Positions 40,600 to 55,140 of a stretch of 64,000 nucleotides of DNA are shown one piece after another. Below the pieces are notes generated by a model that searched no databases, was not told where the DNA came from, and saw nothing but the letters and a program-made list of their open reading frames with translations. Position 1 is the first letter of the stretch, and the number at the start of each line of letters is the position of its first letter. The stretch is from Campylobacterales bacterium (GTDB lineage: Bacteria > Campylobacterota > Campylobacteria > Campylobacterales > Sulfurimonadaceae), in NCBI GenBank assembly GCA_016938735.1, contig JAFGUB010000032.1:124001-188000 (forward strand), read 5' to 3'. A program made the position numbers and the translations under genes.

Positions 40600-40684
40600 G
40601 CGACCGTGGTGGAATTGGTAGACACGCTATCTTGAGGGGGTAGTGCCAAACGGTGTATGAGTTCGAGTCTCATCGGTCGCACCA
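40600..40684 (+). tRNA. tRNA-Leu(GAG)
   Basis: Acceptor GCGACCG pairs perfectly with CGGTCGC, followed by ACCA (CCA encoded). The D arm has GGAATTGGTAGACAC, the anticodon stem is CTATC/GGTAG with loop TTGAGGG (anticodon GAG, 40634-40636), the variable arm is long (class II), and the T loop is TTCGAGT. Its 3' end marks the left junction of the integrated element. Confidence 0.97.
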
Positions 40685-40767
40685 CACGTTTCAAACTCCC
40701 TAAAATACGACATTCCAAGCCAACCAAAAAATCCAAATCATCAAGCTGCAATTATTGTCATTTTAAA

Positions 40768-40890
40768 AGTTATACAAGAGTTATACGACTTTGAGTTGTA
40801 CGATTTTGGGTTATACGACTTTGGGTTATACGATTTTGAGTTATACGATTTTGAGTTGTACGTTTTTGGCAAATTGAGTTATACGATTTT
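40768..40890 (+). repeat. Array of seven 15-bp direct repeats
   Basis: Consensus GRGTTRTACGAYTTT. Units start at 40778, 40793, 40808, 40823, 40838 and 40853, head to tail; the seventh starts at 40876 after an 8-base insertion. A partial unit (AAGTTATACAA) precedes the array. It lies 85-205 bp from the tRNA 3' end. It could hold integrase arm-type sites, iterons for element replication, or sites for a control protein. Confidence 0.9.
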
Positions 40891-40955
40891 GACAAAATAA
40901 ATTCTGTGCAACCATCCCGATTTTTTCTACAATTTTAGAAAAAAGGAGGATGCCC

Positions 40956-43905: not shown

Positions 43906-43990
43906 ACAAAAACGATGCACGTCATGATGATTTAAATTCTGTACATTTCGGCTCGAAACAGAGATAATTTAAATAAAAAAAGGAGTTAAA

Positions 43991-44407
43991 ATGAACTCGG
44001 TACAGGCGTTCGGGTGGTATCTTATTTTTGAGGGTCTCTGGGACGCCATCAAGCCCGAAGAGCATGACAAGATCGCAAAAATGGTCTTTGGTGTCAAGGC
44101 CAAAAAGGTGGACATCGAAGCCGTTGAGCGTGCTGTGGTAGAGGCCAAAAAAGTGCAGATGCAGACAGTGTACGACTATACCGACCCGGAGATCTCAGCG
44201 CTCAGACAGCGCATTGCAGGCGCGCTGTCATACGGCAGATTAAGCGCCGGCACAAACACTGCCATCTCTGATGCACTGGATGAGCTGGATCGCCTGCAGG
44301 ATCGTCTGGCCATATCTGCCGATGATGTCAAAGTGTATCTGCGTGAGGTACTTAAACAGATCAAGCACCTCGAATATGACGCACGCAAGGCGGTAAAAAA
44401 TGGGTAA
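43991..44407 (+). CDS. Hypothetical element protein (138 aa)
   Basis: Not recognised. AAAAGGAG ribosome site. The N terminus is hydrophobic-aromatic (MNSVQAFGWYLIFEGLWDAI); the rest is strongly helical with coiled-coil character (DALDELDRLQDRL, YLREVLKQIKHLEYDARKAV). It could be an oligomeric scaffold or regulatory protein. The next gene starts inside its 3' end. Confidence 0.55.
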   Translation: MNSVQAFGWYLIFEGLWDAIKPEEHDKIAKMVFGVKAKKVDIEAVERAVVEAKKVQMQTVYDYTDPEISALRQRIAGALSYGRLSAGTNTAISDALDELDRLQDRLAISADDVKVYLREVLKQIKHLEYDARKAVKNG

Positions 44408-44786
44408 CTCATTTCTCGATATGATCAACGGTGATTACCATTATGCAGGTCAGGATGGTGGCGGGGCAGGGCATGTCACGCACACGCCGCAGACGCCGAA
44501 GGCAAACAAAGATATGACAGGTCCGCTGTCACCGGCCACTATGCGGATCGGTGAGGTAGATGCCGCGATACGATTTATCAACTACTCTTTGCACCCTGAC
44601 CGCTACACCTTCAGCCGCAGCGAGATCGCGGGGGGTAAGGCGCATTACACTCGCTTTTTAAGCGCCCACCCGTGCGGGGACAAATCGCGCAAAATTGTCC
44701 GCAAAATGCTGATCGACATGGTGGATGGAGCCCATATCACGGCGCCCGAATATATCAATCTGCTGCGCGGTATTACGCTTTATTAA
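44400..44786 (+). CDS. Hypothetical element protein (128 aa)
   Basis: Not recognised. A Gly/His-rich N-terminal stretch (MINGDYHYAGQDGGGAGHVT), a Pro/Thr linker and a helical C-terminal domain (AAIRFINYSLHPDRYTFSRS, KIVRKMLIDMVDGA). Overlaps the preceding gene by 8 bases. Confidence 0.55.
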   Translation: MGNSFLDMINGDYHYAGQDGGGAGHVTHTPQTPKANKDMTGPLSPATMRIGEVDAAIRFINYSLHPDRYTFSRSEIAGGKAHYTRFLSAHPCGDKSRKIVRKMLIDMVDGAHITAPEYINLLRGITLY

Positions 44787-46995: not shown

Positions 46996-47054
46996 GGTTG
47001 TTCGAGTAATTAGGGGTGTACTTGGCGGCTTAATTGCCCAGCTCGGATCAAGCC

Positions 47055-47143
47055 CCTTATGGGGGTTCGGAACAATCGAAGTCCTCTAAAAAGTTTCCAC
47101 CACCTCAAAACAAGAGCCCATAATGGAAGCGAGACAAGCTCGC
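47055..47143 (+). repeat. Imperfect direct repeat R1
   Basis: Starts CCTTATGGGGGTTCGGAACA and ends with the hairpin AAGCGAG-ACAAG-CTCGCTT. R2 (47213-47288) has the same start, the shared words TCGGAACAATCG and CAAGAGCCCATAA, and the same end hairpin. Confidence 0.7.
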
Positions 47144-47212
47144 TTGAACGTCTGTCTAAAATGTTTCCACCTCGTGCTTGGGCACCAATCCGGTCGCCTC
47201 TGCGGCTGAGCT

Positions 47213-47288
47213 CCTTATAGGGTCTCGGAACAATCGTTACATCCCATTTCAAGAGCAAGAGCCCATAAAGGACGCGAGACAAGCTCGC
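47213..47288 (+). repeat. Imperfect direct repeat R2
   Basis: Second copy of R1, slightly shorter in the middle. It carries GCGAG-ACAAG-CTCGC at its end. The spacing between the copies is 158 bp start to start. Confidence 0.7.
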
Positions 47289-47456
47289 ACGTAATCAGCC
47301 CTAATCTGCAATGACATGAAAGTATAAAAACACCAGAGCTAAAAGAGCAAGAGTGGGTGAGGGTATTATATGCGTTGTAGGCTATTTTTTTGAGCGTTGA
47401 TATTTTTAGTCGAGTGTTCGGTTTAGGGGCAGGGCTACCGTGAGAGGCGAACTCAT

Positions 47457-47508
47457 GATTATTCCGAACCCCTATATAGAAAAAGTCTAATAGGGGTTCG
47501 GAATAATC
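47457..47508. repeat. 52-bp perfect inverted repeat, copy 1
   Basis: Arms GATTATTCCGAACCCCTAT and ATAGGGGTTCGGAATAATC (19 bp, perfect) around the 14-base centre ATAGAAAAAGTCTA. Identical to copy 2. GAGAGGCGAA precedes both copies. As DNA it can form a cruciform, and as RNA a very stable hairpin. Confidence 0.95.
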
Positions 47509-47751
47509 AAAATAATATAAAAACAACAAAAACTAATTGACAAAATGCAACAACCGCAAAGCCCAAGCTGACAGTCAACGGCGACAGCCGCGCATTGCAG
47601 GAAAAACCCACAGACCCAAGAGACCGCACCGCAAAGTCAGAACCAAAGAAGGCGGTGAAGCCGCCGCAATTGTAGGAGAAAAGAACCGCAAAGACCAAAT
47701 CGACACACAAAGACGGGACAATCGAATCAAACAGCAGAGAGGCGAATCCAT

Positions 47752-47803
47752 GATTATTCCGAACCCCTATATAGAAAAAGTCTAATAGGGGTTCGGAATA
47801 ATC
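47752..47803. repeat. 52-bp perfect inverted repeat, copy 2
   Basis: Identical to copy 1 over all 52 bases, 295 bp away. Followed by the CTCTAAAAAGTTTCCACC word that also follows R1's related GGGGTTCGGAACAATC. Confidence 0.95.
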
Positions 47804-48150
47804 AAAATCCTCTAAAAAGTTTCCACCTCGAAATAGCCTAAAACGAACTTACCTACCCTTAGGTATGGCCTTATGGGGCGTTGGCAGTCGAATATCCATA
47901 CAAGAGAGACGGAGCAGGCTCACGGACGTGTAGAGTGCATCGTGCTCTTTTGACTGCCAGTTTGGGCTTTGCGGTTAGGGGTGTCTTGGTCTGCGGCTCA
48001 GTCGCTGTGATTTTTGCCATAATGCGGACGGCTATCGCCGCCGAATGTCAGCTTGGTTTTGTCGGCTCGGTATAGGCACCTAAGCTCGCCCACACATAGG
48101 TATGCCTTTGCAGGACGCCGGCAGGCGTTTGCTTTGCAGGTGGAAACTTT

Positions 48151-48477
48151 TTAGGCTTCGGCGAGCAGACGCATGTCGGTGCAAGCAAGCTGCAGCAGGC
48201 TCACGGACGTGTAGAGTGCGTCATACTCATTTGCCGTGATGAGGCGGTGGTAGAGCAGGTCGGCGATGACAGCGATGATCTCGCGGCGCTCGGCGTCTGG
48301 ATCTGGAGTTGGGCTGGTTTTTTGGAGAAAATCATTCGCCAGATAAAACGACTCCGGCGCGTGGTCCAGCAGCATTTCGATCAGCGATGAGGGCATGGAT
48401 TGGTTGAGCTCAAAGTCCCTGTCATCTCGCATCAGCATTTTGGCACTCAAAATCAGCATCAGTGTGTCGTAGTTCAT
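48151..48477 (-). CDS. Hypothetical element protein (108 aa)
   Basis: Not recognised. A helical protein (MNYDTLMLILSAKMLMRDDR, IIAVIADLLYHRLITANEYD). It is the last of three minus-strand small genes; ATG overlaps the upstream stop. Part of its 3' coding sequence (48194-48219) is duplicated exactly at 47913-47938. Confidence 0.55.
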   Translation of the reverse strand: MNYDTLMLILSAKMLMRDDRDFELNQSMPSSLIEMLLDHAPESFYLANDFLQKTSPTPDPDAERREIIAVIADLLYHRLITANEYDALYTSVSLLQLACTDMRLLAEA

Positions 48478-53250: not shown

Positions 53251-54153
53251 TTACTCTCCCTTAGGTGCATACTTTTCAAGGATTTTTTCGTTCGTAGCAG
53301 ATAACTTTTTATTGGTGCCATCTTTAAAAAGCTTATAAAACCAATCTGGAATCAAGACTGAGCGAATTCTATTTTCACTGTATATGTAATCCTGATAAAT
53401 ACGGCAGCGCTGCTTTTCGTTAATAGCTTTAAAATTTTCACAATCGTGCAATATTTTTTTATCGACACTCCTGTTTTGAACAATTTGCCGATTCAAATTT
53501 CTTGATGTTTTGAAACTTAGATAAAAGAGTGGAATCAGTGGGAAGACGATAAATATTAGTGAGTCCTGAAAAGACATATTGAAATAAAAAGCTATGGATA
53601 TAGCGAATAGCGCAATGAAGCCTATAAGCAGGTCTGTAAGCACTTTATATTTGGTTTTCAGTTCATTGCCCCAGATAATATTCATTCGCTGTGCAATTAA
53701 TACTTTTAAGTAATGCGGGGCATCCCGTTCCTCACCATACCAATTTTGCAATGCTTCATCATCTCCTTTGAATGCTTGCTGTCCATCGAATATTTTCTCT
53801 TCACTGATGCCTTCCAGAATCAGTACATCATTTCTGTGGATATCAAAGACGCGTACATCAAATTCCTCTTGCGCTTTCGCTCCATGGGCGATGAACTTGT
53901 CTGCGTATTGCTCCAAAAAGTACATAATAAGAATCCAAACCAGTCCAATACTGATAACAAGAGCATCGTATTCGAGTTCGATGCCAGCAACATTTTTTGC
54001 GTAGCGATAGCCCATATACACCAAAGGCAATACAATACTTACTATGAGCACTACAGTTTTGATATTTTTTGCTTTTGAATAAAAATAGCGCATCGCTCTG
54101 AGAAGTTCGAGGTTGGTTCCCATGTTTTGATTTGCAAACATCAATATCCCCAT
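53251..54153 (-). CDS. S-4TM-type pore-forming CBASS effector
   Basis: A 300-residue membrane protein with two transmembrane hairpins: about 33-52 (TVVLIVSIVLPLVYMGYRY), 64-81 (ALVISIGLVWILIMYFL), 172-191 (LLIGFIALFAISIAFYF) and 198-215 (IFIVFPLIPLFYLSF). A soluble segment lies between the hairpins and a charged C-terminal tail follows. This matches the S-4TM family of putative pore-forming effectors encoded beside CD-NTases. On phage infection, a cyclic nucleotide would open the pore and kill the cell. Its ATG abuts the CD-NTase stop; ATG at 54141 is an alternative start. Confidence 0.68.
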   Translation of the reverse strand: MGILMFANQNMGTNLELLRAMRYFYSKAKNIKTVVLIVSIVLPLVYMGYRYAKNVAGIELEYDALVISIGLVWILIMYFLEQYADKFIAHGAKAQEEFDVRVFDIHRNDVLILEGISEEKIFDGQQAFKGDDEALQNWYGEERDAPHYLKVLIAQRMNIIWGNELKTKYKVLTDLLIGFIALFAISIAFYFNMSFQDSLIFIVFPLIPLFYLSFKTSRNLNRQIVQNRSVDKKILHDCENFKAINEKQRCRIYQDYIYSENRIRSVLIPDWFYKLFKDGTNKKLSATNEKILEKYAPKGE

Positions 54154-55140
54154 TTATCCGTATTGCGGAAAATCGCTTCCAAATATCTCGCGCCATTTGG
54201 CAATAGCCTTACGCATATCTTGGTCATTTGTTTCGAATGAGATGGCTTGTTTGGCTTTATCGTAAGACTCTTTAGCCTTTTCAGATATTTTTTGCCTGTC
54301 ATACCAGCCATGAGTATTGATGTCTCCTTGAAAACCTTTGGGGTCCATTACTGGGTTGTAAATAGCATTTTCTAAATGGCTCCAAAAGTCTCGTAGTTCA
54401 AAATCGATGTATTCGGAAACTTCATACTTTGAATCATAAAAATTAAGAATCATAATTTCGAAGAGGTATGAAGACATAGTGGGCATTGTCGGTCTTTTTT
54501 GCCAGTACTTCAGAGTCCGAATAATTTGAAGTATTTTGCCGTTATGTTTTTGGTTTACACTTGATACGTTCGTCTGGTCAACCCGAGGGTCTGTAGCTTT
54601 CCAGTTGCCGCTTCCATCGGGAATCAAGTAAAAATCAGCAGTTGTAAAAAATGCTGGGACAATGTCAAAGTTCCATTCATAAGAAGTAAGTGAAAGTGTG
54701 GCTGCCTCTTGTCTTCTATGGATATCAGCCTTTTTATAGTGCTCAATTTCTGACAAACCACTTACCAATTTGTTGATAAGCTTTCTTGAATTTAATATAC
54801 CATCATCGCACATTGGCCATAAATATTTTGCATCTTCAGGAACATGGATGACATATTCTTTGCCATATGAGTATTCAGTGTAAGTCGCTCCTGACGCTTT
54901 AAATGCCAATAACAGGTCAATATCATCTAATTCTCGAATCTTCGTATTTCTTGCGAAAGAGCCAAATTTAATGTGTTTTTCGTCGTAAAGAAAGGGAAAG
55001 TCTAATATTTTTGTAGGAAGCTTACAGAGCTGTTCTATTAGCCAATTACGGCTTTTTCGTGCTGTTTTAGTTCGTTCTGAATCCAGATTGACATAATCGC
55101 GGTTGAACTCGGTAAATGCCCCATTGACTGTTGTTGCCAC
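54154..55140 (-). CDS. CD-NTase (CBASS cyclic-nucleotide synthase)
   Basis: A 328-residue nucleotidyltransferase of the cGAS/DncV-like (SMODS) group. The sequence shows the GS motif (FGSFARNTKI, Gly60-Ser61), the catalytic DxD (LDDIDLLLAF, Asp73 and Asp75) and the third Asp in WNFDIVPAFF (Asp159). A helical C-terminal half follows with IIRTLKYWQKRPTMPTMSSY, typical of the OAS/CD-NTase fold. On infection it should make a cyclic oligonucleotide that activates the membrane effector encoded next. No Cap2/Cap3 (E1/JAB) genes are present, so this is a minimal type I CBASS. The product nucleotide and clade cannot be read from sequence by eye. Confidence 0.8.
   Translation of the reverse strand: MATTVNGAFTEFNRDYVNLDSERTKTARKSRNWLIEQLCKLPTKILDFPFLYDEKHIKFGSFARNTKIRELDDIDLLLAFKASGATYTEYSYGKEYVIHVPEDAKYLWPMCDDGILNSRKLINKLVSGLSEIEHYKKADIHRRQEAATLSLTSYEWNFDIVPAFFTTADFYLIPDGSGNWKATDPRVDQTNVSSVNQKHNGKILQIIRTLKYWQKRPTMPTMSSYLFEIMILNFYDSKYEVSEYIDFELRDFWSHLENAIYNPVMDPKGFQGDINTHGWYDRQKISEKAKESYDKAKQAISFETNDQDMRKAIAKWREIFGSDFPQYG

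Follow-up and report, generated by a model that had tools for sequence, protein, structure and literature searches.

In the phage satellites P4 (alpha/crr) and SaPIs, the replication region lies beside the rep gene. Stem-loop single-strand origins (sso) have a precedent on an integrative element in ICEBs1, which is conjugative and relaxase-bearing and whose sso1 comprises three stem-loops and is orientation-specific (PMC4595007). In this study, we analyzed two identical long hairpins in a 64-kb stretch of Campylobacterales DNA (the window, which here means the whole stretch) and compared them with the loci of related helicases. We found that the gene of one DinG/XPD-like helicase is bordered by a long hairpin whose apex is conserved and whose basal stem covaries, the twins of the window included. 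Searches of open-access papers yielded no account of such a pairing of hairpin and helicase, and this hairpin type beside a DinG-like helicase is previously undescribed.

The initial annotation had reported twin hairpins with 19-bp perfect arms, 295 bp apart. Both the hairpins and the spacing of 295 bp were confirmed, although the hairpins proved slightly longer, with perfect arms of 20 bp each (TGATTATTCCGAACCCCTAT / ATAGGGGTTCGGAATAATCA) and a 14-nt loop (Table 1). Similarity between the copies extends beyond their common core, to 82 nt at 94% overall. RNA folding gave 24 pairs per hairpin, including four extra pairs within the loop, and -38.4 kcal/mol for the 91-nt hairpin stretch (z = -12). 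The arm 20-mer, with up to three mismatches, was found at six sites in 64 kb compared with none in 100 shuffles, and no other perfect inverted repeat in 82 kb of the contig is as long as the twins (the runner-up has 13 bp); this shuffle control and the ranking of hairpin lengths exclude a chance origin. Because the flanks differ between the two copies, a sequencing or assembly duplication, a caveat of the initial annotation, is also ruled out. The other caveat, that the unit might be a common genome-wide terminator, was addressed by a genome-wide search, in which the arm sequence was found only at this locus. Paired arms were absent from 228 genomes of the family; the matches there were lone arms with 2-3 mismatches, about as frequent as those of a reversed-pattern control. 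The matches in C13, G141 and G192 were short and were treated as chance. An Rfam search gave no match. At the 5' edge of the core, both copies have an SD-like GAGAGGCGAA and the start of a possible 11-codon ORF (MIIPNPYIEKV). Although ATGs occur at the bases of several hairpins, the peptides agree too poorly for this mini-ORF to be claimed.

Table 1. Coordinates of the features at the hairpin locus (positions in the window; a dot means no strand).
Feature	Position	Strand	Remarks
tRNA-Leu(GAG)	40600-40684	+	Left boundary of island
Tyrosine recombinase, 239 aa	41218-41937	-	Left end of island
SF2 helicase, 655 aa	45028-46995	+	DEAD/ResIII matches; fold nearest DinG/XPD
Non-coding region, 1.15 kb, between convergent genes	46996-48150	.	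Contains all hairpins and repeats
Degenerate hairpin remnant AAGCCCCTTATGGGGGTTCGGAACAATCG	47051-47078	+	56 bp past helicase stop
Second degenerate remnant AGCTCCTTATAGGGTCTCGGAACAATCG	47209-47236	+	
60-nt core, same in both copies	47454-47513 = 47749-47808	+	Counted by eye from sequence
Hairpin A	47456-47509	.	20-bp perfect arms, 14-nt loop; apex CCCCTATA..ATAGGGG; model R1 match 47458-47507
Hairpin B	47751-47804	.	Identical to hairpin A; model R1 match 47753-47802
Motif CTAAAAAGTTTCCACCT	47812-47828	+	Near-copies 47086-47102(+), 47156-47172(+); exact copy 48138-48154(-)

The non-coding region that contains the twins is bordered by the helicase gene (+) on one side and by small ORFs (-) on the other. 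The slot just past the helicase holds a decayed copy, and the two intact copies begin further downstream, at distances of 461 and 756 bp from the stop codon. The related half-sites that had been noted near 47064 and 47221 are real and two in number, one within each remnant (47058-47077 with two mismatches to the arm, and 47216-47235 with three). Of the processes proposed earlier, recent duplication together with selection fits the identical 60-nt cores, the older degenerate copies and the covarying hairpins at the homologous helicase. The CTAAAAAGTTTCCACCT/CTAAAAAGTTTCCACC motif has four copies in the whole genome, all in or at the edge of the hairpin region, and could be a second binding site. 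We also observed that the complement of the CTAAAAAGTTTCCACC motif, GGTGGAAAC, resembles the basal stems of hairpins in relatives (GTGGTGAAAC, TGGTGGGTAAC), and that 47884-47952 partly duplicates the 3' end of the ORF at 48151-48477 (source 48165-48233).

No dedicated family for the helicase was found in Pfam, PHROGs or NCBIfam, and a PDB search by its sequence gave no match. The best PDB fold matches of its predicted structure, whose mean pLDDT is only 63, were ssDNA-bound DinG (E about 1e-13) and the type IV CRISPR DinG; the C-terminal region, as read from the secondary structure of the predicted model, is winged-helix-like. The PADLOC DinG profile matched three of nine helicase members. Profile searches revealed that the helicase is rare, with relatives in G152 (Sulfurimonas AH-709-D16) and in G278 and G343, which are of the same order as the window (G343 carries two copies). 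Further relatives occur in a 'Shewanella' MAG (L046), which may include foreign contigs, in Mesorhizobium, in Aquamicrobium and in a Hyphomicrobiaceae MAG, and more distant ones at L059-L062 and in Ruegeria and Azospirillum. Plasmid and phage records queried with the helicases of the window, L046 and L044 yielded no relative, and scans of viral contigs with the helicase returned a single one, L062, in which the gene is frame-shifted. Most helicase loci have a tyrosine integrase, and the alphaproteobacterial loci often have a serine resolvase; serine resolvases are carried by L043, L045, L047, L062 and L068. The distant homologues lie mostly on elements that encode an integrase and often defence genes, in Campylobacterota and Alphaproteobacteria. 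In the window, L040, L041 and L046, the DNA after the helicase gene is non-coding over a long distance. In the Mesorhizobium element (L044:736-3962), BREX-like ATPase and PIN-domain genes were observed upstream of the helicase.

Analysis of these loci revealed a hairpin at the edge of the helicase gene in L046, L039, L040, L041, L043, L044, L047, L045, L060 and L062, and probably in L068. It lies 0-10 bp past the helicase stop in most relatives and 5' of the start in L060, L068 and L040, the last of which has its helicase flanked on both sides. The arms are perfect over 22 bp in L046, whose hairpin has its first base at the helicase stop codon, 25 nt long with three mismatches in L041, and less perfect in L045, L039 and the Mesorhizobium group. 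Across the hairpin set, the apex YYCTATA...TATAGRR is conserved, whereas the basal stems differ and covary. Variants of the apex are CCCCTAT (window), CCCTAT (L046), CCCTAAT (L041), CTCTATA (L039, L045, L060), CCCCTATA (L043, L044) and TCCTATA (L047). The twins likewise have YYCTATA topping the 5' arm and TATAGRR opposite, and they adjoin a gene of the A3 helicase family with which they share an intergenic region. The two hairpins of L040 are alike each other and lack the YYCTATA apex. Four family members (L024/L042, L059, L061 and L067) have no such hairpin; the pairing of hairpin and helicase is frequent, not universal. The hairpin is duplicated in three elements, those of the window, L060 and L040. 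L060, a 6.6-kb contig (C21 of G639), contains the helicase, two hairpins and R-M genes (N6-methylase/HSDR_N and further R-M-like genes) without an integrase. Its hairpins are 95% alike and inverted, 63 and 60 bp from the contig ends, one directly upstream of the helicase and the second in the leader of another gene. In viral contigs, the only match to the apex pattern (L063) was weak and probably due to chance.

A first covariance model (R1) drew on L046 and L039 (genome G278) only and left out the window; a second model (R2) added the window to these sequences. MAFFT misaligned the complete hairpin set, and the models were therefore built from the two and three alignable hairpins. Run unfiltered on the 64-kb window, R1 matched the twins with E = 8.2e-8 (minus strand) and 7e-5 (plus strand), compared with 1.8 for the next match, and the twins were its only significant matches. 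Among L046, L039 and the window (three sequences only), eight of 18 pairs were changed on both sides, a count that none of 500 shuffles attained, and the apical CnCTAT/ATAGnG was invariant. R2 revealed two new copies in L060, whose scores were modest (E = 0.016 and 0.47), and over 247 Campylobacteria genomes it matched only the island of the window and G278, beside the helicase. In addition, a descriptor (YCTAW atop the 5' arm, TAG opposite, strong arms) was designed after most loci had been seen; over 305 kb, its matches at -20 kcal/mol or better lay solely beside helicases. It detected a hairpin not noticed before, which closely follows the end of the L062 helicase, and a weaker hairpin just 5' of the Azospirillum helicase. 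Since shuffled sequence gave about 2 matches per pass at -20 kcal/mol, single descriptor matches mean little, and it is their clustering at one gene that counts. A conserved helicase-linked hairpin is well supported.

The twins sit inside a mobile genetic island of about 38 kb in tRNA-Leu(GAG). The island is bounded on the other side, outside the window, by a copy of the tRNA 3' end (59 nt, 93%, window-equivalent 78513-78571), in which 34 nt are identical (tRNA 40652-40685 = L022:16539-16572, on contig C9 at about 202.5 kb), and integrases lie near both island ends. Shortly after the tRNA, a 15-nt unit, GAGTTATACGATTTT, forms a seven-copy array (40778-40907), and 25 nt overlapping the start of this array (40765-40789) are repeated beside the right-hand tRNA copy (78385-78409 equivalent); the array and the 25-nt repeat are possibly integrase arm sites. 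As cargo, the island carries a type I R-M system in which a CBASS-like pair is embedded: a SMODS synthetase and an S-4TM effector lie between HsdR and HsdS/HsdM (53251-55140). A gene pair is also present as an inverted duplicate with 79% identity (43955-44782 vs L022, 75762-74957 equivalent), an arrangement that suggests an island formed from two merged elements. Among 29 proteins of the island region, Pfam searches revealed no relaxase, rolling-circle Rep or primase family, several small ORFs being matchless, and the helicase was the sole replication-initiator-like protein recognised. An integrase and the helicase are present, and no packaging genes were found among the scanned island proteins.

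Among the three roles suggested initially (replication origin, terminators or non-autonomous mobile repeats), a replication origin appears to be the best candidate. We propose that the twins are a cis-acting part of an integrase-helicase element, most likely its replication start or priming site once excised, a reading that we hold tentatively and at slightly below an even chance. The element would excise from the chromosome, and the helicase and host enzymes would use the hairpin, as single-stranded DNA or as a cruciform, to start or prime copying of the element. The hairpin would thus act as the origin or the single-strand-initiation hairpin of the excised form, with the conserved apex and loop as the recognition part, and local duplication would yield extra copies, of which the older ones decay. 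The placement on either side of the helicase, the duplications, the adjacent non-coding DNA, the resolvases and the isolated L060 are all compatible with a hairpin at which replication starts or is primed, and the serine resolvases in relatives fit a multiplying form of the element. L060 is a candidate free element and may be either a trimmed circle or simply a contig with dead ends. Its ends did not overlap the other checked contigs of G639 (contig ends for C1-C20, whole contigs only for C22-C27), whereas many of those checked overlap one another by about 119 bp or more; L060 also has no terminal self-overlap, and circularity is thus not proven.

The main rival to the origin reading is an RNA element in the 3' or 5' UTR of the helicase transcript, for example a binding site by which the helicase would control or stabilise its mRNA, or a source from which a small RNA would be processed. 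The location of most relatives' hairpins so close to the stop, or in the 5' leader in L060, L068 and L040, would suit such an element, stem covariation is equally compatible with RNA, and sense-strand G-U pairs in L039, L045 and L062 improve folding (-22.0 vs -9.8 in L062). However, the overall sense-strand excess of G-U over A-C was not significant (15 vs 8, p = 0.1), R1 scored the window higher on the strand opposite the helicase, the intact copies of the window lie hundreds of base pairs beyond the stop, and the second L060 copy belongs to the leader of a different gene; we consider an RNA element unlikely. Because the strand preference is not significant, RNA, single-stranded DNA and cruciform are indistinguishable. 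Palindromic sites suit dimeric binding, and a protein-binding or recombination site, in double-stranded or folded DNA (an operator, an oriT mimic or the border of an exchangeable cassette), would also agree with the L040 copies flanking the helicase and the inverted L060 copies near both contig ends. Such a site seems distinctly improbable, since the basal stems vary freely yet remain complementary, unlike an operator that is read by sequence, and no relaxase family was recognised among the scanned island proteins.

In favour of transcription terminators between convergent genes, the twins are strong hairpins located where two genes converge, and most relatives have theirs directly after a gene. 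Nevertheless, no T-tract follows the stems of the window on either strand or those of the relatives, the apex is conserved in sequence in distant bacteria, and in L060, L068 and L040 a hairpin also precedes the gene, so that this role is poorly supported and, in our view, very unlikely. A terminator scan did not report the twins, which is weak evidence since its 8-nt loop limit may exclude a 14-nt loop. Repeated copies, decayed relatives and other local repeats nearby would fit neutral local duplication or a small mobile repeat (MITE or REP-like), but the lack of dispersed copies, both at other sites of this genome and, for paired arms, across the family, and the homologous covarying hairpin at the same gene in distant relatives make this the least probable explanation, one to which we give hardly any weight. 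Terminator, assembly artefact and dispersed repeat are thus disfavoured as explanations.

To our knowledge, no replication initiators are known among SF2 DinG-like proteins, which counts against the origin reading, as do the family members without such a hairpin and the missing apex motif in L040. A replicon of a new type, with a DinG/XPD-like SF2 helicase as initiator and a dedicated hairpin origin whose CYCTATA apex is conserved, distributed over at least two phyla on defence-carrying elements, is a bolder proposal that we regard as rather doubtful. The hairpin offers a practical entry point to integrase-helicase elements, the helicase of which belongs to none of the curated families searched. 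If it is an origin, it would explain how small elements with R-M, CBASS-like or BREX-like genes can persist although they have no recognisable Rep or relaxase, and it would serve as a marker for finding more of them.

Compared with known systems, the window helicase has a fold in common with DinG and CasDinG, whereas identity is about 12% and no CRISPR genes were seen in the loci read. Unlike P4 and SaPIs, the element has a DinG/XPD-like SF2 helicase rather than a P4 alpha- or SaPI-type Rep, long hairpins rather than iterons, and no packaging genes among the scanned proteins; like them, it combines a tyrosine integrase, a tRNA site and defence cargo with a replication-type helicase beside non-coding repeats. 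In contrast with ICEBs1, neither a relaxase nor an HUH Rep, one of which would accompany an sso, was matched among the 29 proteins, and single long hairpins without fixed orientation stand in place of the sso1 arrangement. On the other hand, the hairpins resemble the sso of rolling-circle plasmids and ICEBs1 in being non-coding stem-loops with conserved parts, whose structure is kept while the sequence varies (PMC4595007).
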